Source of the DNA: Bacteroidota bacterium
GTDB taxonomy: Bacteria; Bacteroidota; Bacteroidia; Bacteroidales; F082
Direction: 5' to 3'
Assembly (NCBI GenBank): GCA_009773165.1
Contig: WOUZ01000012.1
Span: 1 to 64,000, forward strand
DNA: 64,000 bases
Position numbers and translations under genes: made by a program. The notes under the pieces were generated by a model, which was not told where the DNA came from, did not search any database, and saw only the letters and a list, made by a program, of their open reading frames with translations. Positions 46,780 through 58,669 of the stretch are shown here, piece after piece. Within the stretch, counting starts at the first letter, position 1. Each line of letters opens with the position of its first letter.

Positions 46780-48246
46780 CTACAACTTGATTAATTCCAA
46801 ATCGCTGATTCCATTTCTGTTCAACACAAGCCGATAACGGTGATACGAAACATTATTCTCTGATTTCAGCTGCATGATTAAGTTGAGGTAATAAATCTTC
46901 TCTCCGGTAAGGATGGAAAAAGTCTTGTTTTTTTCGGTGTGAAAGAGTTGAAATTCAGGGTTATCCATTTTCATCAACATACCCGAAACGTTCAACCTTA
47001 TGATATCATTTATTCCGGCGAAGAAATAATCGCCACATTGATCAAGGCTTTTACGGTTGAGTTGAATGAGCTTACGATAAAGGATAATTTTCTCGTCGTT
47101 GTTTCTGTTATCTGCTTCTAAAATGGCAGAACGATTTCTGTATCTAATCACTTCTGTAGGAACTTTGTTTTCAGAAATAAAATCCATTGCCTCTTTACTC
47201 CAGCCTATATTATTGTTTTTGAGGCTTATACTTGTTTTGTGGTCAAAATAGTTTCGTCCTAGTTTGTAGGCAAAATAATAACGTCCAAGTTCTTTGATAC
47301 GATCTTTCAACATATAACTTACAACAAGTGCCACGAAGAAAGGCATTGTCAAATTGCCGTATTTTTGCTGGAAGGAGAATGCAATAGCTGTCGCAAAAAT
47401 CATGCTAACACCCGCTGCTATCGAGTAATAAATTTGCTCTTTAATGACTCCATCTTTCTTTTTGCGTGTAAAGAGAAAGAGCACATCTTCGGCATATTTT
47501 TTAAGAAGACCTAGCCTGTGAACTAATTCTCGATTTTGCATCAGGCTATTTTTTTCAACAATAGCATAGCCATTTTCTTTCTTATACTTGAATTCAGTTT
47601 TAATGACGTTTAACAGCGATTTTGCTGTTTCATTCTGAATAGGCTCACCAGGTTGATTGTATGAGCGAAGCAATCTAAAACAATGTTGTTCAATAATATT
47701 GCTTAAAAATTCATCTCCAAACCGGAAATAATTGATCAAATTTTGACCCACGGTTGGGGCATTTATTGTGTTCCAAAGCTGTCGGTAAGCGTTAGCAATA
47801 TGTTGAATATTTGTAATGAAGGCTGCTGTCAGAAACACATTATCTTCAGCTTTTTCCGAATGAAGAATATGATTCGTTTCGTTTCTGAGAGCACTTTTGA
47901 TGATAGAGAGAAACATTTTTATCTGATGCTCATACTCAGTTATGTTAGTTCGCGTTGGCTCCGAAGCGAGTTTTCTGAAAGCATTTTCGAGTTGCTTGAG
48001 AGGTGATTCGTTTCCGGATGCAATATCACGTAAAAGATAAACAGGTGTGATCAGACGGATATTTGATTTTAAGTCGCGGTAAAAATCTTTTTTATCATAA
48101 TTAGATGGATTGATATCCAGACTATTAGGAATGAATATCCAGGTATTAACTGCAAACTCACTCACTTTTTTCTTTTTTCTGGCTAGAAAACTCAGCTTAA
48201 GTTCAATAGAAAAACGGTTGTGTATTTTTACATTCTCTTCAATCAT
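46780..48246 (-). CDS. Hypothetical protein with two membrane helices, 488 aa
   Basis: I do not recognise a family. The N-terminal 270 residues are soluble and mostly helical, and two adjacent hydrophobic helices lie at about 280-300 and 305-320 (YYSIAAGVSMIFATAIAFSF, MPFFVALVVSYML). The C-terminal 160 residues are soluble, ending with a beta-rich stretch. The two-helix hairpin would leave both ends on the same, probably cytoplasmic, side. It starts 39 bases after the SLC13 transporter stop codon with no visible promoter, so it is probably cotranscribed and could modulate that transporter. Confidence 0.7.
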   Translation of the reverse strand: MIEENVKIHNRFSIELKLSFLARKKKKVSEFAVNTWIFIPNSLDINPSNYDKKDFYRDLKSNIRLITPVYLLRDIASGNESPLKQLENAFRKLASEPTRTNITEYEHQIKMFLSIIKSALRNETNHILHSEKAEDNVFLTAAFITNIQHIANAYRQLWNTINAPTVGQNLINYFRFGDEFLSNIIEQHCFRLLRSYNQPGEPIQNETAKSLLNVIKTEFKYKKENGYAIVEKNSLMQNRELVHRLGLLKKYAEDVLFLFTRKKKDGVIKEQIYYSIAAGVSMIFATAIAFSFQQKYGNLTMPFFVALVVSYMLKDRIKELGRYYFAYKLGRNYFDHKTSISLKNNNIGWSKEAMDFISENKVPTEVIRYRNRSAILEADNRNNDEKIILYRKLIQLNRKSLDQCGDYFFAGINDIIRLNVSGMLMKMDNPEFQLFHTEKNKTFSILTGEKIYYLNLIMQLKSENNVSYHRYRLVLNRNGISDLELIKL

Positions 48247-48285: not shown

Positions 48286-49893
48286 TTAAAACAATCCATT
48301 TGGTGTTATTTCAAGCACTCTGAACCATGTTTGACCTGCAATGATTATAAAAAACCATGCAATGACCATCATTGTGAATCCGTATTTAAATGTATCTGCA
48401 TAAGTGTATTGATCAGTTTCATACAAAAGAGCGGCAGGTTTGCTATTAAAAGGTAACACATACACATGCTCAATCATAAAAGCGACAGGCAAAGCCAAAC
48501 TGATCACATCATATCCAAATCTTCCGGCTACCCCAATGGCGATAGGAACAAAAATCATGGTTCGCATAGTTTTTGATTGAAAAAGTAATGCGCTGAATGT
48601 CATAACTCCTGTCAACAAAACATAGAGTAGCCAAAAAGGAGTGTTTGAGGTAATGTTCAAGTGATCAAAAAAGGCATTAACACTTATTGCTGGCAAATCG
48701 GTGGCTTCAAAACCTGTTCCCAGCGCATAAGCTCCGGCTGAAAACAACATCAAATGCCACGGGATATCTACATCATTCCATTTTACAACACCGATGCGGG
48801 GTAGCAATGCAACGATAGCCCCAACAAATGCAACGGCTGTTGCGCTTATTCCGTGTAGTTTATCAGTAGCCCAGAATCCCAGAATTAAAACAAAAATAAC
48901 TACTGATTTGATTTCCAATACATTAACTTTTCCTAGTTTCTGATACTCCATCCTTAATCGATCCATTCCACCTTCAATTTGTGGAAGTCTTTCTTCTTTG
49001 GAAAGCGGAAAATATACTTTCATCGCTAAAATGTATCCAATAAACATGAGTCCAACCATAACAGGAAACATAGCCATCATCCAATCGGCAAAGAAAATGG
49101 TTTGGCCAACAGCACCACCGATCAATGCAGCAGCAAGTAAGTTGGCTCCCGATCCTGTTACAAATGCACCTGCTCCTATATTGATATTTAAAAGATTTTG
49201 AAGCACGATACTTCGCCCGAAATTATTCTTGTTTTCGCCACCTCTTGCGCCATAAATTGCAGCAATAACCATAAATATGGGTAGAAGTATTGCCGCTTTT
49301 GCCGTTGTGGCTGAGATAAAAGCTGATAGAATTAGATTGATTATGATAAAACTTATGAATATTGAGCTGGCGTTCTTTCCAAAACGAAGGATAAACCACA
49401 AAGCAAAACGTTTGGCAACACCAGTCGCTACAAGCATGCTTGCCAAAACGAATGACATGATATTGAGCCACATAACTGGGTGACCCAACTGAGCATAAGC
49501 TTGCTTTTCGGGCAAAACTCCGGTTAAAACCAAACTGATGATCAGAATCAACGAAGTAAGGTAGTTTGGAATGGCTTCTGTAATCCACAAAACAATAGCT
49601 GCTATGAAAATGCCTAACATAAGGTGGTTGTTTCTTGAGAAAAGTTCAGCGCCGGCTTTGTCGTAAACTTTTTTTGCTCCTGTAGTAAGCGTTTCGTAAT
49701 CAATAATTTTCAGAAAATCAAATTCCATAAGATAGCCAAAAACCAAAAAAGCAGCAATAGACAGTGGAATACCAACAATTGCGAGTGTTTTTTCAAGTTT
49801 GGATTTTGTTCTTTTTGGGAGCTTCTCGATGCGGTAGTTGTTCATATCGAGAGGATCGAAAACCTCTTTAGAAACGGTGTTTTTGATTTCCAT
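48286..49893 (-). CDS. SLC13/DASS family sodium-coupled anion symporter
   Basis: A 535-aa membrane protein of the divalent-anion:sodium symporter family, which takes up dicarboxylates, sulfate or phosphate with Na+. After a cytoplasmic N-terminus of about 38 residues it has about 11-12 helices. Family features include AIPNYLTSLIL (helix 3 region), the sodium-site-like SATTAKAAILLPIF and NAFFD...SNTPFWLLYVLLTGVMTFSALLFQSKTMRTMIFVPIA. The first loop SFISATTAKAA replaces the usual SNTATA and may alter substrate choice. A TAnnTTTG box lies 20 bases upstream of the ATG. Confidence 0.88.
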   Translation of the reverse strand: MEIKNTVSKEVFDPLDMNNYRIEKLPKRTKSKLEKTLAIVGIPLSIAAFLVFGYLMEFDFLKIIDYETLTTGAKKVYDKAGAELFSRNNHLMLGIFIAAIVLWITEAIPNYLTSLILIISLVLTGVLPEKQAYAQLGHPVMWLNIMSFVLASMLVATGVAKRFALWFILRFGKNASSIFISFIIINLILSAFISATTAKAAILLPIFMVIAAIYGARGGENKNNFGRSIVLQNLLNINIGAGAFVTGSGANLLAAALIGGAVGQTIFFADWMMAMFPVMVGLMFIGYILAMKVYFPLSKEERLPQIEGGMDRLRMEYQKLGKVNVLEIKSVVIFVLILGFWATDKLHGISATAVAFVGAIVALLPRIGVVKWNDVDIPWHLMLFSAGAYALGTGFEATDLPAISVNAFFDHLNITSNTPFWLLYVLLTGVMTFSALLFQSKTMRTMIFVPIAIGVAGRFGYDVISLALPVAFMIEHVYVLPFNSKPAALLYETDQYTYADTFKYGFTMMVIAWFFIIIAGQTWFRVLEITPNGLF

Positions 49894-50035: not shown

Positions 50036-50503
50036 CTACCACTTTTTAAACGGATTTTTCATCAACATGGAGTTGTAATATTTAACATTTCCGGTAACTT
50101 CTTGTCCCAGCCACGATGGTTTTTCGAAGCTTTCGTTCTCAGCAGATAATTCCACTTCGGCTACCGTCAGACCTTCATTTTCGCCATAAAATTCGTCGAC
50201 TTCAAAAGTGTGAGGGCCGGCTTTAACCAGAAAGCGTGTTTTATCAATCACACCAGGTTCGCATATTTTGAGCAGTTCATCAACTTCAGCAACCGGTATT
50301 TCCTTTTCCCATTCATAACGACTTGCTCCAGAATCACTTCCGATGCCTTTGATTGTTATAAAACCTTTATCACCTTTAATTCTAACCCTAACTGTACGTT
50401 CAGGGACAGAAGAAAGATAACCTTGTGTGATGCGTGTAGCTTTTTGAGCTTCACTTTTAAAATCACCATTAACCAAAAACTTGCGTTCAATTTCCTGTGC
50501 CAT
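50036..50503 (-). CDS. CYTH domain protein (triphosphate tunnel metalloenzyme)
   Basis: A 155-aa protein of the CYTH/TTM superfamily, which hydrolyses or forms triphosphate bonds inside an eight-stranded tunnel. The defining ExExK motif is EIERK (residues 4-8), and tunnel-lining charged residues are seen in TVRVRIKGDKGFITIKG, RYEWEKEIP, DKTRFLV, EVDEFYGENEGLTVAEVEL. The length matches the short bacterial class, several of which are inorganic tripolyphosphatases. It is the last gene of the phosphate operon, three bases after another CYTH-like gene, which suits a role in releasing phosphate from tripolyphosphate. Confidence 0.9.
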   Translation of the reverse strand: MAQEIERKFLVNGDFKSEAQKATRITQGYLSSVPERTVRVRIKGDKGFITIKGIGSDSGASRYEWEKEIPVAEVDELLKICEPGVIDKTRFLVKAGPHTFEVDEFYGENEGLTVAEVELSAENESFEKPSWLGQEVTGNVKYYNSMLMKNPFKKW

Positions 50504-50506
50504 GGT

Positions 50507-51148
50507 TTAATTTGCTAAAGGTTTGTCAATCATGCCAATAACTCTTTTAATAGCCTGTAAGTAGTTAATGTTTTCTACTCCTTCGAGGCCAACATCTTTT
50601 ACAGTCTTGAGGATATCATCAACTTCTGTTGATTCGGAATTGATAGTGACAATTTTAGCGCCATTGATAAGCACTTCACCAAATTCGCAAATCGAATTGT
50701 TAACCATATATCCAAGTCGTTGTTTATGAACTTTAACAGCAGCAAGATCGGGATGTTGACGAATCATTTCGATAAATTCTTCGTATGTAATAATATCGTT
50801 TTCCAGCACTGGCATTTCAACCATAAACGCTGGAAACACCTCATTTACAAGTACCTCAGCTTTTATTGGGAATTCACCTTTCATCAGCGGATTCCATTGT
50901 TCAAGTCCATCCACAGTTTGAACATAGGTTTTGATATCCATTTTACCATCGCGGATCTTCGTGTTATTAATATCGTTGGTCCGTGAAATGATATAGATCT
51001 CGTCAGAATGGCGTTCCCAAACTTTTTCAGGAATTGGAGCAGAAAGACGCGCCATTCTGAAATGAGCTTTATCGAAGTTTTGGCCGAAGGTTCTATACTC
51101 AAAACGCGGTTTTGAGATTTCTCCAATTTGCATTTTTTCTTGTGTCAT
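50507..51148 (-). CDS. Divergent CYTH-like protein, 213 aa
   Basis: The sequence resembles a CYTH domain without the classic N-terminal ExExK: FEYRTFG (17-23) stands in its place, then EIYIISRTNDINNTKIRDGKMDIK (written here only as its key parts: a YIIS strand, then KIRDG and DIK) follows the family's strand pattern, and GLEQWNPLMKGEFPI continues it. This spacing is seen in CYTH relatives of unknown function. The C-terminal 100 residues form an alpha/beta region. I prefer ATG 51148 to an in-frame ATG at 51181. It is three bases from the canonical CYTH gene, so the pair is translationally linked. Confidence 0.65.
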   Translation of the reverse strand: MTQEKMQIGEISKPRFEYRTFGQNFDKAHFRMARLSAPIPEKVWERHSDEIYIISRTNDINNTKIRDGKMDIKTYVQTVDGLEQWNPLMKGEFPIKAEVLVNEVFPAFMVEMPVLENDIITYEEFIEMIRQHPDLAAVKVHKQRLGYMVNNSICEFGEVLINGAKIVTINSESTEVDDILKTVKDVGLEGVENINYLQAIKRVIGMIDKPLAN

Positions 51149-51209
51149 ATTCTTAAAAAATGGGTTCTTATCAGGGCGCAAGCAGCACCCTGATAAGAAT
51201 GTTTGTTAA

Positions 51210-53669
51210 CTATCTTCCTCTTTTAGCACCGTTATTTGAAGTGCCACGAGTTATTGTCTCGAGTAATTGCCAGCTATCCGTTCCGTCAGGTTTACGGCCA
51301 TAGGATTGAGTTTCTGACATAGAAGGGATTACAACATGGTCAATTACAGTGCCATCAACCTGTTCGAACCAAACCTCGTCGCCACCACTTGATAATCCGA
51401 AACCTGAAGCATCATCATCATCAACAACGATAACATAGAACCCTTTCGACGGGATGATAGTCCCTGCAGGAAACTCTTTTTTGGGTTTCGTTCCCGACTG
51501 ACCACCTGCGTCATAGATTTTGAATCCGCTGATATCAACTTCAACATCAGAATCATTGTAAATTTCAATCCAGTCAGGATTTCCAACAACACCGCGTGAG
51601 TAAGCTTCGTTCATTAATACAATGATTCCACCTGGTGTTTCGTTTGAGTTTGCAGCTCCTGGTGTAACAGTCATCATAACCTGAAGGTTTTCACTACCAT
51701 CAGGAAAACGTCCGAAAGAAGTATTTACTTCCAATGCAGGGAACTCAATGCTATCAACAACAACACCTTCAAGGTTTTCGAACCATACTTTTTCGCCGCC
51801 TGACGATAGTCCAAACCCACTTTCAGTACCATTATCAACAATAATTACCACAAATCCTTTTGATGGAATTGTTGCGCCGGCGGGGAATTCCATTTTTGGT
51901 TTTGTGCCGGCCTGGCCACCGCTATCGTATATTTTCCAGCCTGAGAGATCGATTGGTGCATCACCATCATTAAATATCTCAACCCAATCTGGTGCTTCAG
52001 TTGTTCCGCGGGAATAAACTTCGTTCATCACTACATCAACAGCTTGTGGAACACTATTGCTGTTTGGTGCACCTTTGGTAACTGTTTCCAAAACCTGAAT
52101 GTTTTCAGTACCATCGGGATATCTTCCAAACGACTGATTCTCAAGTAGTGCGGGAAACTCTATGCTGTCAACAGCCATTGAAGTGTTATCGAGCCAGACC
52201 TTTTCACCGTTGCTGGATAGACCAAAACCTGTTGCGGTACCATCATCGACAGTTATAACAAGGAATCCTTTGGCGGCAATGGTTGTGCCGGCAGGGATTT
52301 CCATTTTGGGTTTCGTGCCACTCTGACCCCCGCTGTCATAAACTTTCCAACCTGACATGTCAACAGGAGCATCGCCGTCGTTATATAGTTCAATCCAATC
52401 AGGTTCTTCGGTAGTTCCCTTTGAGTAGATTTCATTTAGGACAACTTTTACAGCGATTGGGATGAGGTCGCTATTTGGAGCTCCTTTGGTAACTGTTTCA
52501 AGAATCTGCATTGTTGAAGTGCCATCAGGGAAACATCCATACGATTGGGTAAGTGTCAAAGCTGGAAATGTAACATCTTTAGCTACAACACCTTGTGGGT
52601 TTTCAAGCCAGATTTGTTCGCCATTTGATGACAATCCGAATCCTGACTCAGCTTCATCATCAACGACAATTACAAAGAATCCTTTTGCCGGTACTTTTGT
52701 GCCAGCAGGAAGGTCTTTCTTAGGTTTGCTACCTGATTGTCCGCCGCTATCGTATATTTTCCATCCGGTAAGGTCAGCTTCAAAAGGAGAGGCATTGTAG
52801 ATTTCAACCCAATCAGGGTCTTCAGTTGTGCCTTGTGAGAAAACTTCATTGATATAAAGTACTGGTAAAGGAATTTCAGTGGAATTTGCAGCTCCGCGGC
52901 TAATGGTATTCATAATTTCCCAGGTTGCGCCACCATCAGGAATTCGGCCATAGGATTGAGTTGGCTCAAAAGCAGGGAAGGTGACGTTGTCAATAAGATT
53001 TCCTGCAGCGTTTTCAAACCAAATTTGTTCTCCTGCGCTTGACATTCCAAAACCACTTTCTGTACCATCATCAACCACAAGCACAAAGAAGCCTTTAGCC
53101 GGAATTACAGTGCCAGCGGGAACTTCTTTCTTAGGTTTTGCACCTGATTGTCCACCACTATCGTAAACCTTATAACCACTAATATCGGCAGCAGCATCCG
53201 AAGCATTGTAAAATTCAACCCAATCAGGGTCATCAACAATACCGCGGGAATAAACTTCGTTCATTAAAACGAGAGCAGCACCAATTGTATAAGCACCTGT
53301 TGAGGTTGGTGCACCATCTGGAGCAACAGCAATCAACCCGGATTTATTTGTAGCCTCGATGTAATAATTGACTGTTGCGCCGTCAGCTTGTCCGGGAATT
53401 TGTCCGCTGTACATATTCGCTGTAGCCGAGCTGCTCATTGCAACAGAAGTGAAACTACCACCATTTGCGGAATAATAAAGTTTAACAGCCGTAACGCCAT
53501 CTAAATCAGTAACTTTTGCTAAAACCGTAACTGTTTGATTTGCAATTGGAGCTTGAGGACTGATTGATAAATCAGAGATTGAGGGAGCGCCTTTATAAAT
53601 TTCGTCCTTAACACAGCCAGTAAAAAGGCTCAACAGGACCATAGATAAAATAAATATTTTCGTTTTCAT
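51210..53669 (-). CDS. Lipoprotein with five tandem lamin-tail domains
   Basis: An 819-aa exported protein. A lipobox (SLFTGC) predicts lipidation at Cys19. Residues about 26-128 form an Ig-like beta domain (TVTVLAKVTDLDGVTAVKLYY). Residues 132-819 are five repeats of 137-138 residues, each a lamin-tail (LTD) fold: LMNEVYSRG, DPDWVEFYN, DISGYKVYDSGGQSG, GFGMSSAGEQIWFEN and SYGRIPDGG recur in every copy. LTD domains in secreted bacterial proteins often accompany nucleases and phosphatases and are thought to bind surfaces or nucleic acid. No catalytic domain is present. It lies 25 bases after the porin gene inside the phosphate operon, so a phosphate-source-binding role is plausible. Confidence 0.85.
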   Translation of the reverse strand: MKTKIFILSMVLLSLFTGCVKDEIYKGAPSISDLSISPQAPIANQTVTVLAKVTDLDGVTAVKLYYSANGGSFTSVAMSSSATANMYSGQIPGQADGATVNYYIEATNKSGLIAVAPDGAPTSTGAYTIGAALVLMNEVYSRGIVDDPDWVEFYNASDAAADISGYKVYDSGGQSGAKPKKEVPAGTVIPAKGFFVLVVDDGTESGFGMSSAGEQIWFENAAGNLIDNVTFPAFEPTQSYGRIPDGGATWEIMNTISRGAANSTEIPLPVLYINEVFSQGTTEDPDWVEIYNASPFEADLTGWKIYDSGGQSGSKPKKDLPAGTKVPAKGFFVIVVDDEAESGFGLSSNGEQIWLENPQGVVAKDVTFPALTLTQSYGCFPDGTSTMQILETVTKGAPNSDLIPIAVKVVLNEIYSKGTTEEPDWIELYNDGDAPVDMSGWKVYDSGGQSGTKPKMEIPAGTTIAAKGFLVITVDDGTATGFGLSSNGEKVWLDNTSMAVDSIEFPALLENQSFGRYPDGTENIQVLETVTKGAPNSNSVPQAVDVVMNEVYSRGTTEAPDWVEIFNDGDAPIDLSGWKIYDSGGQAGTKPKMEFPAGATIPSKGFVVIIVDNGTESGFGLSSGGEKVWFENLEGVVVDSIEFPALEVNTSFGRFPDGSENLQVMMTVTPGAANSNETPGGIIVLMNEAYSRGVVGNPDWIEIYNDSDVEVDISGFKIYDAGGQSGTKPKKEFPAGTIIPSKGFYVIVVDDDDASGFGLSSGGDEVWFEQVDGTVIDHVVIPSMSETQSYGRKPDGTDSWQLLETITRGTSNNGAKRGR
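51213..53276 (-). repeat. Five tandem coding repeats of about 412 bases
   Basis: In transcription order the units are 53276-52866, 52865-52452, 52451-52041, 52040-51627 and 51626-51213, matching residues 132-268, 269-406, 407-543, 544-681 and 682-819. The conserved NE dipeptide recurs at residues 137, 274, 412, 549 and 687. Units 3 and 4 look closest to each other (shared TTEEPDW/TTEAPDW, DGDAP, KPKME, QAVDVV). The repeats are diverged at DNA level, so they are not an assembly artefact. Confidence 0.9.
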
Positions 53670-53694: not shown

Positions 53695-55281
53695 TTAGAA
53701 ATCAACTTCAAGTCGAATAGCGATCATATGAAAATCCTCGCCGGCTGTACCATCAGCATCAACAACAACTTTCGGATCTGTCGTTAAGTTACCATCAGCA
53801 TCATAACCAATAAACAGCTTGCCTTTACCATTTGCGTATCTGTCATGATTTAAGTAAGCGTAATTGAGCATGATCTTAATGTTATTGTTGGCATAATAGT
53901 TTAGCCCAAGAGTGTAACCTTCGCCAGCACCGCCGGTAATCGTCCCATCTCCTTTGCTGTTCAGACTCAGATAGTCGTAACGGGCCGCGAGTTCGATGTC
54001 ACCCCATTTTTTGCCACGGGCAACTTGTGTGAATTCACCTTCAGTGGTGTTGTAATTATATTTTCCACCGAAGATTAGCCAGGTACCCATAGCATAAAAT
54101 CCATCAAATTTTTCTGTTGGTAAGTCATTCAATCTATGGATTTTACTCATAATATATTCGCCCTGAAAACGAAGATTTTTTCTATAACCGGCAACTTCAA
54201 AGCCTGTAAGTGTTGCGTAGTCAATATTTCCAATCAAATCGGTATCAATATACTTTTTCCGGTTAATCGAAGTAAGTGAACGGGTGCTGTAGCGCATAGT
54301 TTGTCTTACTTCTGCATCCGTTTTAGGTGTTCGATATGAGCCGGCAACTCCAAAATGTAAGCCTTTGTCAACATCTTTATAGAAAGGCATTGCGACGAGT
54401 TTTCCGGTAAATGAAACGCCTTCATCTACGCCAAAATCTTTGTTGTTATCTTCAGAAAATATGCGCTCCTCAATTCCGCCAATATCCTGGAAATGTATTC
54501 CGCCAATTCCTAAAAGCCATTCATAATTATAGTTAGCTCCGATTCCAATGTGTCTGGATGGACCAAAAGTCGCAACAACATTTGGCCGTTCGATAAATGT
54601 AAGATAGCGTGAAGTAGTAGTTGATTCCATAGAGAATCCTTCCTTAAAATTACCTGCTTTTAACTCTATGCCATTATTGAATGTATACTGCAGATAGGCA
54701 TCTTTTAGTTCGAGCTCCGAATTAGAGAAATCAAGATCAATTTCACCGTACCAGTTTTTCGCAAACTCAACTTTTGCTGCAAACCTTGCTCTTCGGATCG
54801 ATGTGCCGTTGCCAATAGGGTTGAGTGTTTTGTTTGAAAACATAGCCCCATCTACCTGAACGCGGAAATCGAACCACATTCTGTAGTTGTCTTTTTGACT
54901 TTCCAGAACTAAAATTCCATTTCTCTCTTCAGCAAAAAGAGGATTGCGATTCACCCTGACACCATATTGGTTATAACGCACATTGCTGGTTAGCGTGACA
55001 TCCAACAATTCTTTTCCATCAAGGGCAACCTCAAGGTCATCATGATCAGGATGGGAAAAGACAAGGATCTGTGAGGAACTTTTTTCAACAGGAATGGCGA
55101 AGCGACCTTCGGCATCTGTTTTAACAACGTTTAGGGCGCCTTTGACACGAATGATAGTTTCGCTCAAAGCCTTGCCTTCATGACTGGAGGCAACTTTTCC
55201 ACTTACGTTTACCGTTTGACCGAACACAAGGACCGTCCCCATGCTGAACCAAACTGCTACTAAAAACATGATTTTCTTCAT
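53695..55281 (-). CDS. OprO/OprP-type phosphate-selective porin with N-terminal beta domain
   Basis: A 528-aa outer-membrane protein. Signal peptide at residues 1-21 (ending VFGQ). Residues about 23-100 are a carboxypeptidase-regulatory-like beta domain (VNVSGKVASSHEGKALSETIIRVKG, given here only as the VNVSGKV...SETIIRV pattern), as found at the N-terminus of TonB-dependent transporters. Residues about 105-528 form the barrel, with alternating aromatic strands and WYGEIDLDFSNSELELKDAYLQ typical of the OprO/P family; it ends in an aromatic C-terminus (RLEVDF). Expected role: diffusion of phosphate or polyphosphate. It lies 15 bases after the PiT fusion gene. Confidence 0.85.
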   Translation of the reverse strand: MKKIMFLVAVWFSMGTVLVFGQTVNVSGKVASSHEGKALSETIIRVKGALNVVKTDAEGRFAIPVEKSSSQILVFSHPDHDDLEVALDGKELLDVTLTSNVRYNQYGVRVNRNPLFAEERNGILVLESQKDNYRMWFDFRVQVDGAMFSNKTLNPIGNGTSIRRARFAAKVEFAKNWYGEIDLDFSNSELELKDAYLQYTFNNGIELKAGNFKEGFSMESTTTSRYLTFIERPNVVATFGPSRHIGIGANYNYEWLLGIGGIHFQDIGGIEERIFSEDNNKDFGVDEGVSFTGKLVAMPFYKDVDKGLHFGVAGSYRTPKTDAEVRQTMRYSTRSLTSINRKKYIDTDLIGNIDYATLTGFEVAGYRKNLRFQGEYIMSKIHRLNDLPTEKFDGFYAMGTWLIFGGKYNYNTTEGEFTQVARGKKWGDIELAARYDYLSLNSKGDGTITGGAGEGYTLGLNYYANNNIKIMLNYAYLNHDRYANGKGKLFIGYDADGNLTTDPKVVVDADGTAGEDFHMIAIRLEVDF

Positions 55282-55296
55282 AATAAAATTTTTAGG

Positions 55297-57042
55297 TTAA
55301 ATAGTATTTATAAATTGAAGTAAATTATCTTCCTTTTCCAAACCCAGTTTTCGTTTGAGCCGATACCTTGAAACTTCGACACTTTTGGGCGAGATACTGA
55401 GTAGAGTTGCTATTTCTTTGTTCGATAAATTAAGCCGGATAAGTGTAGCTAACTTCTTTTCCTGATCCGATAAACCTGGGAAAGAAGTGTCAAGTTTCAT
55501 TTTAAAATCTTTATGAATCTGCTCCACCTCGCCATAAAAAGTTTCTTTTTCTCTTGCGAATGACATTTTTTGACGGATAAGAGCAATTATGGATTTCAGG
55601 TTTTGTTTGGTGCTTGCTTGTTGTTCGGTTTCCATTACACCTTCGAGGCGATTGGTCAATTCTTCCAGAAACAAGCGCTGTTCAGTAAGGTTAAAAGCCA
55701 TGTCAATGAATTCTTTCCGGCGTAACTCCAGATTTGAATGAAGGACCTCATTTTTTGACTGGATGGCTTTCATTTCCATTTCGGATAAAGAACGCTGCGT
55801 TTGAAACAACTGATTTTGTTGCGCAAGTAAATCGTTTTCAGCTTTCAATCGTAGTTTTTGCTGACGCAGAATTAAAAAAACCAACATCGTTATTAAAAAA
55901 ACAGATGTAATGATGATTCCCGGGACAATCATATCGAGTTGTCGTATCGTGTTGATGTCGTTTTTAAAAATTAAATCAACTGCGTCATTTTTAATTGGTT
56001 TTATTGTTATTGGCAAATCAAAAACATTTTGAACAAAGAAAAGGGCGATAAATGTTAAAACACCGGCAAGTATAGGTGTTGTTATCCAGCCCATTGCAAT
56101 GCCTATTAAGGTTTTTGTGTTGATATCCTGCGAGCCTTTAACTAATCCGATGCCTAATACAGCTCCAATAACAACCTGTGTGCTTGAAACCGGTACCAAA
56201 GGCAATGGAGGAAGTCCAATTGAAATCAATAAGTTAGAGAGTCCTGACGAAGAAAATAAAAACAGAACCAATGCTTGTGAAAGAACGACAACAATAGCCG
56301 CTTCCGGAGAAATGGACAGTATTCCATTACCCACAGTATGCATCACACGTTCGCTATAGGTATAAATTCCAACAGCAATTGAAATACCTCCCAGCAAAAG
56401 AAGGATTTGAACACCATCGAGTGAAAAGAATCCGAAATCAATATTTATTGCTGGTGCTGAACTTAAGAAAACGCCCATTACGTTGGCTATATTGTTAGCT
56501 CCCAAACTATAAGCTCCAAAAGCACCAGTTACAATCAAACTAATTCGAATGTAAGTATCGAGCTTAATGACGTGAATTTTGGCTTGGTTAAGAAAAAATC
56601 GCAATGCTAAAAATAGCAAAGCTGAGAAAATCATGCCCAGGATAGGTCCACTGATCCAGGTGGTGACAATTTTTGAAAGCACCCCCAAATCAGCTTTATT
56701 TCCAGTGAAATAAATCCATCCCATAATTGCTCCAACGATCGCTTGACTTGTAGAAACAGGTAAACCCTTTCGTGTCATAAAGAAAACTGTCAGAGCTGCA
56801 CAAAGAGAAACGGTGAATCCGCCAGCAAGTGCATCTACTGCACCAAGAGCATTGAGTGTTTCGGCACCCCCCTTGCCTTGAAACACCGCTCCCAGAATTA
56901 CGAAAATACTTGCAATCAATGCGGCCTGCTTAAATCTTAACATCTTTGACCCAACGGCACTACCAAAAATATTGGCAGCATCATTCGATCCCAATGACCA
57001 ACCCAGAAAAAGGCCACTTGATATGTAGATAATAAATAACAT
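55297..57042 (-). CDS. PiT phosphate permease fused to coiled coil and LuxR-type HTH
   Basis: A 581-aa protein with an unusual layout. Residues 1-345 are a PiT (Pi:cation symporter) permease: about 10 helices with the two inverted-repeat signatures GSNDAAN (18-24) and GANNIANVMG (181-190), plus PVSTSQ (95-100) and PVSSTQ (284-289). One more helix (370-393) leads to a cytoplasmic coiled coil (394-475). Residues 523-578 are a LuxR/FixJ-type helix-turn-helix: LSDQEKKLATLIRLNLSNKE, then IATLLSISPKSVEVSRYRLKRKLG. The coiled coil plus HTH module is the one found at the end of membrane-bound TPR regulators of Bacteroidota. So the permease may sense phosphate and bind DNA at the membrane. The domains are in one unbroken frame. 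Confidence 0.92.
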   Translation of the reverse strand: MLFIIYISSGLFLGWSLGSNDAANIFGSAVGSKMLRFKQAALIASIFVILGAVFQGKGGAETLNALGAVDALAGGFTVSLCAALTVFFMTRKGLPVSTSQAIVGAIMGWIYFTGNKADLGVLSKIVTTWISGPILGMIFSALLFLALRFFLNQAKIHVIKLDTYIRISLIVTGAFGAYSLGANNIANVMGVFLSSAPAINIDFGFFSLDGVQILLLLGGISIAVGIYTYSERVMHTVGNGILSISPEAAIVVVLSQALVLFLFSSSGLSNLLISIGLPPLPLVPVSSTQVVIGAVLGIGLVKGSQDINTKTLIGIAMGWITTPILAGVLTFIALFFVQNVFDLPITIKPIKNDAVDLIFKNDINTIRQLDMIVPGIIITSVFLITMLVFLILRQQKLRLKAENDLLAQQNQLFQTQRSLSEMEMKAIQSKNEVLHSNLELRRKEFIDMAFNLTEQRLFLEELTNRLEGVMETEQQASTKQNLKSIIALIRQKMSFAREKETFYGEVEQIHKDFKMKLDTSFPGLSDQEKKLATLIRLNLSNKEIATLLSISPKSVEVSRYRLKRKLGLEKEDNLLQFINTI

Positions 57043-57125: not shown

Positions 57126-57707
57126 TTATTTTGCATTGATAATTCTCCTTAAACTTCTGTTAAAGGTCATCATCGACAATGAAAAACGCATCATTGATGA
57201 CTCTTTGGCTTTAAGAAGTTTGATCATAAGGTTAAAATCAGAATCGGCATAGCCCATCAAACTCTCAAAAAAGCTGTGTTTTTCACCGTTTTCCAAGGTG
57301 ATGGTTATCTTTCTACGTAAATGCTTATCAATGTTGATTTCAGCATTAGCTGAGTCTTCAGTAAAATGGGCAGTTTTTCCATTGCCAAAAACAAGGGTAA
57401 AATGGCTGTCTTTAAGTTCAAAGCTGATAAGTCGCCAGCTTTTTGGATATAGAAAAGTGAGAGAAAGTATTTTTTCCCACCAAAGGAGCGGATCGCCTTC
57501 AAAATAATAATGACCTTCTCGCTCCATCTTGTCATACATATTATTTTTCCAATCTATTATAGAGGTCCATTCTTCGGCCGGATCTTCCTTGATAAGTGCT
57601 TTTGAGTAATCATTAAGGACTGATAAGTTCAATAATTCGCTTCTGGAAAATCCTTGAAGCGTTTGACCATCAGTAAGTTGAATTGAGTAAGTTGTTTTAT
57701 TCGACAT
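57126..57707 (-). CDS. Hypothetical soluble protein in the phosphate operon, 193 aa
   Basis: I do not recognise a family. It has no signal peptide and no membrane segment. The N-terminal 60 residues contain a short beta part (YSIQLTDGQTLQGF), the centre has a Trp-rich stretch (DPLLWWEKILSL, PKSWRLISFEL), a beta segment follows (HFTLVFGNGKTAHFT), and the C-terminus is helical and basic (RFSLSMMTFNRSLRRIINAK). It lies between the DUF47 and PiT-HTH genes, 49 and 83 bases apart, all on one strand, so it probably serves phosphate transport or its regulation. Confidence 0.65.
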   Translation of the reverse strand: MSNKTTYSIQLTDGQTLQGFSRSELLNLSVLNDYSKALIKEDPAEEWTSIIDWKNNMYDKMEREGHYYFEGDPLLWWEKILSLTFLYPKSWRLISFELKDSHFTLVFGNGKTAHFTEDSANAEINIDKHLRRKITITLENGEKHSFFESLMGYADSDFNLMIKLLKAKESSMMRFSLSMMTFNRSLRRIINAK

Positions 57708-57756: not shown

Positions 57757-58404
57757 TTAAATTGTACGTTTGATTGCCATGATTGAAATCAGATCAGCAG
57801 CTTTTTCTGCAGCATCGGAAATTGTTTCAATATGCAAAGTAAAATATCTAAGGTGAAACTTTTCGCTCAGCTTAAGATTTGGCATATCATGAAAAACCTT
57901 TCTTTTTATAGCATCCGCAAGTTTATCTGCTTCTTTTTCATAGAGATAGGTACGATGGATTTTTTCTTTAACCGCCTCTGGTTCTCTGAAATAGGCTCTT
58001 GCTGCAGGTAATACTGATTCACATGAAGCTACCGCTAAGTCGGTAAGCTTTTTCATGTCTTGATGTAGTTCGTGAGGAATAAAGGGAATCTCTACATCAA
58101 ACTGATATAGGTTCTTTTTTGCCAAATCAATGATATTATCCAGTTCTTCCATCAGTCGCATTATGTCACCCCGAAGCTGTGGCATTAATGATTGTGTATA
58201 AAGTATATTTTCAACTTTTCGCCGCATGATGTCGGCTTCGGTTTCGAGCGATGATAGTGTTTTCAAGTTATCGAGAAAACTATTATTGTTTCCATCAAGG
58301 TAGTTGAAAACGCCTTCTCTGAAAATCAGAATTCCTTTGTCGATATGATCGATAAAACTTTCGATGAGTTGAATCGACTTATTGGCATGACGTAATGTAA
58401 ACAT
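57757..58404 (-). CDS. DUF47/PhoU-like phosphate transport accessory protein
   Basis: A 215-aa all-helical cytoplasmic protein of the TIGR00153/DUF47 family, distantly related to PhoU. Family features are the acidic metal-binding-like helices with ETEADIMRRKVEN, MEELDNIIDLAKKNLY and YEKEADKLADAIKRKVF. These proteins are usually encoded next to PiT permeases and are thought to gate them. ATG 58404 is preferred to an in-frame TTG at 58416, because a TAnnTTTG box ends 23 bases upstream of 58404. It is the first gene of the phosphate operon. Confidence 0.93.
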   Translation of the reverse strand: MFTLRHANKSIQLIESFIDHIDKGILIFREGVFNYLDGNNNSFLDNLKTLSSLETEADIMRRKVENILYTQSLMPQLRGDIMRLMEELDNIIDLAKKNLYQFDVEIPFIPHELHQDMKKLTDLAVASCESVLPAARAYFREPEAVKEKIHRTYLYEKEADKLADAIKRKVFHDMPNLKLSEKFHLRYFTLHIETISDAAEKAADLISIMAIKRTI

Positions 58405-58426: not shown

Positions 58427-58434
58427 CAAAAGTA
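58427..58434 (-). promoter_or_regulatory. Candidate -7 box for the phosphate operon
   Basis: TACTTTTG on the minus strand, an exact TAnnTTTG match, 23 bases before the DUF47 ATG. Confidence 0.5.
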
Positions 58435-58476: not shown

Positions 58477-58669
58477 AAAAATGAGCAATTCTTTATGTTG
58501 GGTTAATACGTGAATTAATGTATTGATAAATAATAATATATGATCTGTCTGTATAGTGACAATTACTTAGTTTAACTTGATATGGTTCATTCTGTTAAGC
58601 CTAAGTAAGGTGACAAATTGCTTTTAGAATTAGCTTTTTTAAGCTTTAAGTAATGATTTGTTGCATAAA

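Follow-up and report, generated by a model that had tools for sequence, protein, structure and literature searches.

A PiT-type permease fused to a LuxR-type DNA-binding domain in Bacteroidota: a probable membrane-integral transcription factor with a candidate operator array in its own promoter

One gene in the 64,000-nucleotide stretch of DNA analysed here (the window) encodes a complete PiT-type permease that continues into a membrane helix, a coiled coil and a LuxR-type helix-turn-helix (HTH) domain. Judged from sequence comparison, this permease probably serves as a membrane-integral transcription factor that regulates its own operon, a reading to which a probability of about 0.7 was assigned. 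What is new in this analysis is a candidate operator, a heptamer array in the promoter of the DUF47 gene that accompanies the HTH. The fusion gene and its parts are as follows.

55297..57042, minus strand: PiT-HTH fusion gene, 581 aa (open reading frame, Pfam, structure model)
56020..57042, minus strand: PiT (PHO4) permease, residues 1-341 (PF01384, 207 bits; 6l85 by sequence and fold)
55864..55932, minus strand: 13th membrane helix, residues 371-393 (hydropathy and charge over the alignment)
55618..55863, minus strand: cytoplasmic coiled coil, residues 394-475 (helix 372-470 in the model)
55309..55476, minus strand: LuxR/GerE HTH, residues 523-578 (PF00196, 32.8 bits; DosR fold; conserved recognition helix)

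The reading frame runs unbroken through 581 codons, as the sequence-only reading had described; it starts with ATG and lies on the minus strand, the opposite (plus) strand being full of stops. Both Pfam checks suggested by that reading were carried out on the window protein: the best PHO4 stretch (PF01384) covered residues 18-329 with 207.1 bits against a cut-off of 33.7, and GerE (PF00196) covered residues 524-570 with 32.8 bits against a cut-off of 23.5. The two signatures expected of a complete PiT permease were present as GSNDAAN (18-24) and GANNIANVMG (181-190), and PF01384 was matched by all 49 fused-family members scanned.

In the AlphaFold model (input of 49 sequences, mean pLDDT 80.7, pTM 0.61), a helix of residues 372-470 continues from the membrane into the coiled coil and is followed by a compact HTH. 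Using Foldseek, the permease was matched to TmPiT 6l85 (E 5e-12, TM-score 0.67 over the target) and the HTH to DosR, the latter with a weak E value (0.2-0.3), a probability of 1.00 and a TM-score of about 0.7 over the target. The succession of extra helix, coiled coil and LuxR-type HTH proposed earlier was recovered by Pfam, hydropathy and the structure model.

By charge and hydropathy, the permease is predicted to end on the outer side of the membrane, with the tail on the inner side. A hydrophobic helix lies between permease and tail in 60/60 full-length fused proteins (at least 60 among the matches listed), and the segment after helix 13 is more positive than the one before it in 56/60. Together with the model, these observations support a topology in which the permease ends at the periplasm and helix 13 would lead the coiled coil and HTH back into the cytoplasm.

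A frameshift or assembly artefact joining two separate genes was ruled out, its probability being negligible, because the same frame is kept in at least 60 full-length fused proteins, the window's included, with cultured Lutibacter and Mariniflexile among the sources. At least 59 of these proteins are distinct (L010 and L036 are identical), and with the frame kept across them the fusion can be taken as genuine, as had been claimed.

The fusion gene stands in an operon composed mainly of the following genes.

57757..58404, minus strand: DUF47/PhoU_div gene, first of the operon (PF01865, 66 bits)
57126..57707, minus strand: 193-aa open reading frame between DUF47 and PiT-HTH (no Pfam match)
53695..55281, minus strand: porin O/P (PF07396, 146 bits)
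51210..53669, minus strand: LTD (lamin tail domain) protein (Pfam)
50036..50503, minus strand: CYTH domain protein (Pfam)
48286..49893, minus strand: DASS (Na_sulph_symp) symporter (Pfam)

This gene order recurs. Of the 52 fused loci L036-L087, 50 have DUF47, and the remaining two are truncated. Porin O/P is present in 49; it is missing from L058, and the sequences of L043 and L086 stop too early to show it. LTD occurs in 38 (several of the rest are cut short), and CYTH and DASS in 37 and 33, respectively, the remainder being mostly cut short. The 193-aa frame had a counterpart of similar size in L007, not in L008-L011, and no match in loci L036-L087. Two further frames beside the operon, of 224 aa (50507-51181) and 488 aa (46780-48246), gave no Pfam match. 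The DUF47-PiT pair is a core also common to tail-less relatives; in the eleven tail-less loci that were read the neighbours differ, and L090, L100 and L103 keep porin or CYTH.

The upstream regions of DUF47 in HTH-bearing loci carry a repeated heptamer with the consensus CNCTACA. On the coding strand before DUF47, 75 sites were counted in 42/56 fused loci (L056 left out), and 4 on the opposite strand; 100 shuffled draws averaged 4.9 sites and gave 12 at most. The strict heptamer was found in 0/24 unfused loci with 350 bp upstream; it does occur in L097, whose record breaks off inside the gene. Within the same fused loci it was present upstream of DUF47 in 41/53, of PiT in 3/55, of porin in 7/21, of LTD in 0/26, of CYTH in 0/36 and of DASS in 1/32. 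The 350 bases before porin in these 21 loci contain 7 forward and 10 reverse sites; where the two genes adjoin, this region falls within the part of the fusion gene that codes for the tail.

The heptamers cluster near positions -200, -155 and -97 and are spaced with a period of 10.9 bp (R 0.72, 98 pairs from 47 loci). The phasing was significant against both random and jittered positions (p 0.0005), with the shared ancestry of the loci retained in this value. In the window, the DUF47 promoter contains degenerate heptamers only and no strict CNCTACA; the candidate half-sites and the promoter element are listed below.

58604..58610, minus strand: candidate half-site CCTTACT, 206 bases before the DUF47 ATG, degenerate (array test)
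58593..58599, minus strand: candidate half-site CTTAACA, 11 bp from CCTTACT, degenerate (best array start)
58550..58556, minus strand: candidate half-site CTATACA, at -152 (array test and window scan)
58496..58502, minus strand: candidate half-site CCCAACA, at -98, degenerate (array test and window scan)
58427..58434, minus strand: promoter element TACTTTTG, TAnnTTTG-type

The last of these we take to be a Bacteroidota -7-type promoter element. TAnnTTTG was found in 36/47 fused upstream regions and also in 17/27 comparison regions, and in 19/24 pairs the proximal heptamer stands 65-71 bases from it. This spacing suggests activation; because the array lies upstream of the core promoter, the fusion protein would most likely act as an activator.

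For the array test, each locus was scored with a position matrix from whose training the locus itself and its named near copies had been left out, and was judged against its own shuffles, because upstream GC differs between the groups (0.29 in fused and 0.40 in unfused loci). The three position intervals were chosen after the first set had been viewed; the held-out set is free of that choice. With the window, L007 and L008 excluded from matrix training, the window locus passed (p 0.003), and in a scan of both strands of the window (127,986 positions) the best array started in the DUF47 promoter.

In the discovery set, 47/54 HTH-bearing loci passed at p<0.05 compared with 3/24 tail-less loci (L094, L107 and L108), and 38/54 compared with 0/24 at p<0.005. 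Fisher's test gave 3e-10 without correction for kinship, and the 54 fused loci count one protein twice (L010/L036). Three loci with frames cut by the record end (L088, L089 and L097) stand outside these counts, and all three carry the array. The held-out loci came from 393 genomes of the order and nine fetched stretches, which provided 37 further loci; 35 were scorable, L201 having too short an upstream region and L217 no DUF47. After ten loci with upstream regions identical to first-set loci had been dropped (L202, identical to L058, among them), 25 were left. With the matrix frozen, 15/15 HTH loci passed (p<=0.016) and 0/10 tail-less loci did.

These results bear on the possibility that the CNCTACA array is owned by a different regulator, with the HTH acting elsewhere or not at all. 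In favour of such a regulator are six of the 53 first-set loci with intact HTH in which no array was detectable by the test (L008, L012, L062, L069, L071 and L087), four of them from Lutibacter with a recognition helix as in L077, which passes. The held-out result speaks against it, however, as does the joint absence of array and HTH in several nested lineages: L090 beside L081, L205 beside L078/L084, L015 beside L064, and L014 beside L075/L208. L058, with a degenerate HTH, is nested beside L048 and also lacks the array; L012, one of the six exceptions, stands beside L014. Further, of 30 fetched matches of a strict pair pattern (out of 72), 26 could be placed: 22 lay inside open reading frames, three at the own promoter and one elsewhere. 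A separate owner of the array is considered unlikely. Sites in the own promoter come and go with the DNA-binding domain, as autoregulation would demand, with the six intact-HTH exceptions.

Independent pairs were also counted on the trees. On a quick 96-row tree, with starred branches and L058 scored as HTH-less, five pairs were available, of which on average 4.7 ran in the expected direction and 0.0 in the opposite one; the median p was 0.0625, and with five pairs significance is out of reach. The first tree gave four pairs (p 0.25), or three (p 0.5) if L058 was scored as HTH-bearing.

A regulon beyond the own operon was sought with the same strict pair pattern and not supported, as 72 matches in six genomes compared with 201 for the reversed control showed no enrichment. 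The one placed CTACA-pair match outside open reading frames and off the own promoter was at L162.

By sequence, the tail is related to the corresponding parts of TPR-HTH and Reg_prop/Y_Y_Y-HTH proteins, with identities of about 23-43%; among ten such relatives scanned with Pfam, eight carried TPR and two Y_Y_Y, which agrees with the earlier assignment of the tail to the kind known from membrane-bound TPR regulators. GerE was matched at E<=0.01 in 48/49 fused proteins scanned, some of them under the curated cut-off, and the recognition helix is conserved. Failure of the HTH to match PF00196 in homologues, which the sequence-only reading had named as counter-evidence, was confined among those scanned to L058, in which the recognition helix is degenerate and the porin missing.

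Nine pairs were used for dN/dS, of which four were saturated and one (L037/L038) showed no change in the HTH. In the four usable pairs, with HTH substitutions and unsaturated dS, values for the HTH were 0.006-0.035, compared with 0.027-0.067 for the permease in pairs with unsaturated sites. Constraint on the HTH is similar to that on the permease, and the HTH is under purifying selection. Covariation between recognition helix and operator was unsupported, since the site-bearing L077 has the same recognition helix as the Lutibacter loci that lack sites.

The fusion was found in eight of 41 genomes, comprising the own genome and its relatives (G000, G003, G004, G005, G007, G008, G019 and G024). 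A scan of a genome collection with two peptide patterns, from which the best 80 loci were taken, widened this range: among the matches listed, the carriers belonged to Lentimicrobiaceae, Prolixibacteraceae, Salinivirgaceae, Dysgonomonadaceae, Saprospiraceae and Flavobacteriaceae, with further MAGs named Chitinophagaceae and one Melioribacteraceae MAG. The range among these matches is Bacteroidota and one Ignavibacteriota MAG. Cultured carriers within Flavobacteriaceae were Lutibacter flavus, L. maritimus, L. litoralis and Mariniflexile maritimum. When 395 genomes sampled evenly from the class were scored, with at most three candidates per genome, the fusion appeared among the matches listed only in G000 and G212, and the sample of 393 genomes of the order gave 22 further loci with an HTH by the motif rule. 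One of these, L190, has a TAA in the permease that interrupts the fusion frame, with HTH and array still in place. G003, which has an intact fusion, also contains a second permease-like match (G003:C300:25-1125), 29% identical and with seven in-frame stops. On the permease tree, the HTH label changed six times among 88 rows, a count that cannot separate gain from loss.

Tail-less relatives were 342-492 aa long and ended in one of four ways: with hardly any tail, with a short soluble tail, with a different soluble stretch of some 150 aa, or with the helix and a short basic peptide. The last type forms a clade of 15 loci (L091-L096, L098, L099, L102, L105, L106, L108, L110, L111 and L114) in which a 13th helix is present, the HTH is absent, and a short conserved basic peptide follows helix 13 and ends in FWKNIK or a KKYYE-like sequence. 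The soluble stretch of about 150 aa occurs at the C-terminus of L101, L104, L112 and L115, from Myxococcota, Cloacimonadota and Acidobacteriota MAGs, and is probably periplasmic because no membrane helix precedes it; no Pfam match was obtained for this part of L101 and L112, the two scanned. L212 stops just after the 13th helix, has no array, and looks like a recent loss of the HTH. In the own genome, the paralogue L004 (contig C34) is a 750-aa PiT protein with a long C-terminal part for which no NCBIfam match at 1e-10 was found.

Whether the fused permease transports was approached through its residues. Q100, N184 and Q289 differ from the aligned residues of TmPiT, which would suit a permease turned sensor that binds its substrate without carrying it and signals to the HTH only. 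KsAmt5 offers a precedent, being described as a protein that 'binds but does not translocate NH4+' (PMC5764959). Each of the 35 HTH-less relatives, however, has the same Q100 and N184, and 33 of them have Q289 as well, and no permease column separates fused from unfused proteins (above 80% in one group and below 25% in the other). The neighbouring porin and DUF47 genes likewise suggest an uptake operon, and a permease that only senses is regarded as unlikely. A pure sensor might be expected to lose residues needed for transport, and no such loss was seen, the hallmark residues being equally conserved in fused and tail-less proteins. Because its core is indistinguishable from that of the tail-less relatives, the permease of the fusion probably still transports.

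As to the substrate, phosphate sensing through the permease is given an even chance. The same device could instead serve sulfate or another oxyanion, which is possible without being probable. The best NCBIfam model was the CysP sulfate permease NF053884, at 81 bits well short of its cut-off of 400. Sulfate comes into question because the CysP-like paralogue L003 has the same residues at the positions of Q100, N184 and Q289 and because the operon includes a DASS gene. Against this, the first half of the permease keeps GxNDxxN, whereas L003 and L034 do not, and the genes for DUF47 and porin O/P, families linked with phosphate, adjoin the fusion.

The sequence-only reading had further proposed that the fusion bypasses the Pho two-component relay. 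In the own genome no PstB (best 239 bits, cut-off 343) and no Bacteroidota-type PhoB (210 bits, cut-off 270) reached the cut-off; in 14 control genomes the PstB model was over cut-off in 13 and the Bacteroidota PhoB model in one. This absence fits the proposal, but it is not specific, as most relatives without the fusion also lack both: PstB was over cut-off in 7/33 and PhoB in 4/33 of them, and either in 0/8 fused relatives. An anticorrelation between the fusion and Pst/PhoB was not used as evidence, eight fused genomes being too few and G003 possessing a PstB-like ATPase of 305 bits, under the cut-off of 343. Unclassified response regulators were abundant. The own genome also contains three other PiT loci and a Na/Pi symporter with a PhoU domain, the only PhoU domain in that genome.

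Returning to the reading of the fusion as a self-regulating transcription factor, the following mechanism may be proposed. The protein would be a one-component transcription factor integral to the membrane, with the whole PiT-type permease as its sensory part. Its HTH, probably in oligomeric form and along a single face of the DNA, would bind the phased CNCTACA-type array and, so bound, regulate its own operon (DUF47, PiT-HTH and porin O/P). A substrate-dependent state of the permease, perhaps together with the PhoU-like DUF47 protein, might be passed along the long helix to the HTH, and the genes for uptake and porin would then follow phosphate supply. It is more tentatively suggested, at somewhat less than even odds, that transporter conformation or occupancy sets the promoter directly and without a relay, several permeases docking side by side on one face of a helically phased operator of about 110-140 bp, pulling the operon to the membrane and switching it according to transport state.

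The sensor of phosphate scarcity in E. coli was still called unknown in a 2015 review (PMC4415409). The fusion would hold sensor, transporter and DNA-binding domain in one polypeptide with a candidate operator, and transport-coupled signalling could therefore be tested with one gene and one promoter. Searches of open-licence papers listed neither a PiT-HTH protein nor any secondary transporter acting as a transcription factor in its own right.

Several known systems share parts of this arrangement. With PiT/PHO4 and CysP permeases, TmPiT 6l85 in particular, the fusion has in common the whole permease core, the GxNDxxN signature and the fold; it differs in its added helix, coiled coil and HTH, and its second signature is GANN where TmPiT has GAND. 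The TPR-HTH and propeller/Y_Y_Y-HTH regulators have a similar tail from membrane helix to HTH, whereas their sensor consists of TPR repeats or a propeller in place of a permease. The PhoR-PhoB-PstSCAB-PhoU system resembles the proposed device in responding to phosphate at the membrane and in having a PhoU-like partner, for which DUF47 is a candidate here; in contrast to it, the fusion has neither kinase and receiver nor ABC transporter. One-component regulators of the CadC/ToxR type possess a single membrane helix and a small periplasmic sensor; they too tether a DNA-binding domain to the membrane, but by that single helix and not by a permease. The nearest published idea among the open-licence papers searched is KsAmt5, an ammonium transporter fused to a histidine kinase (PMC5764959). 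In both cases a transporter appears to be recruited as the sensor of a fused signalling domain; the output of KsAmt5 is a kinase and the protein is reported as non-translocating, whereas the output here would be a DNA-binding domain.
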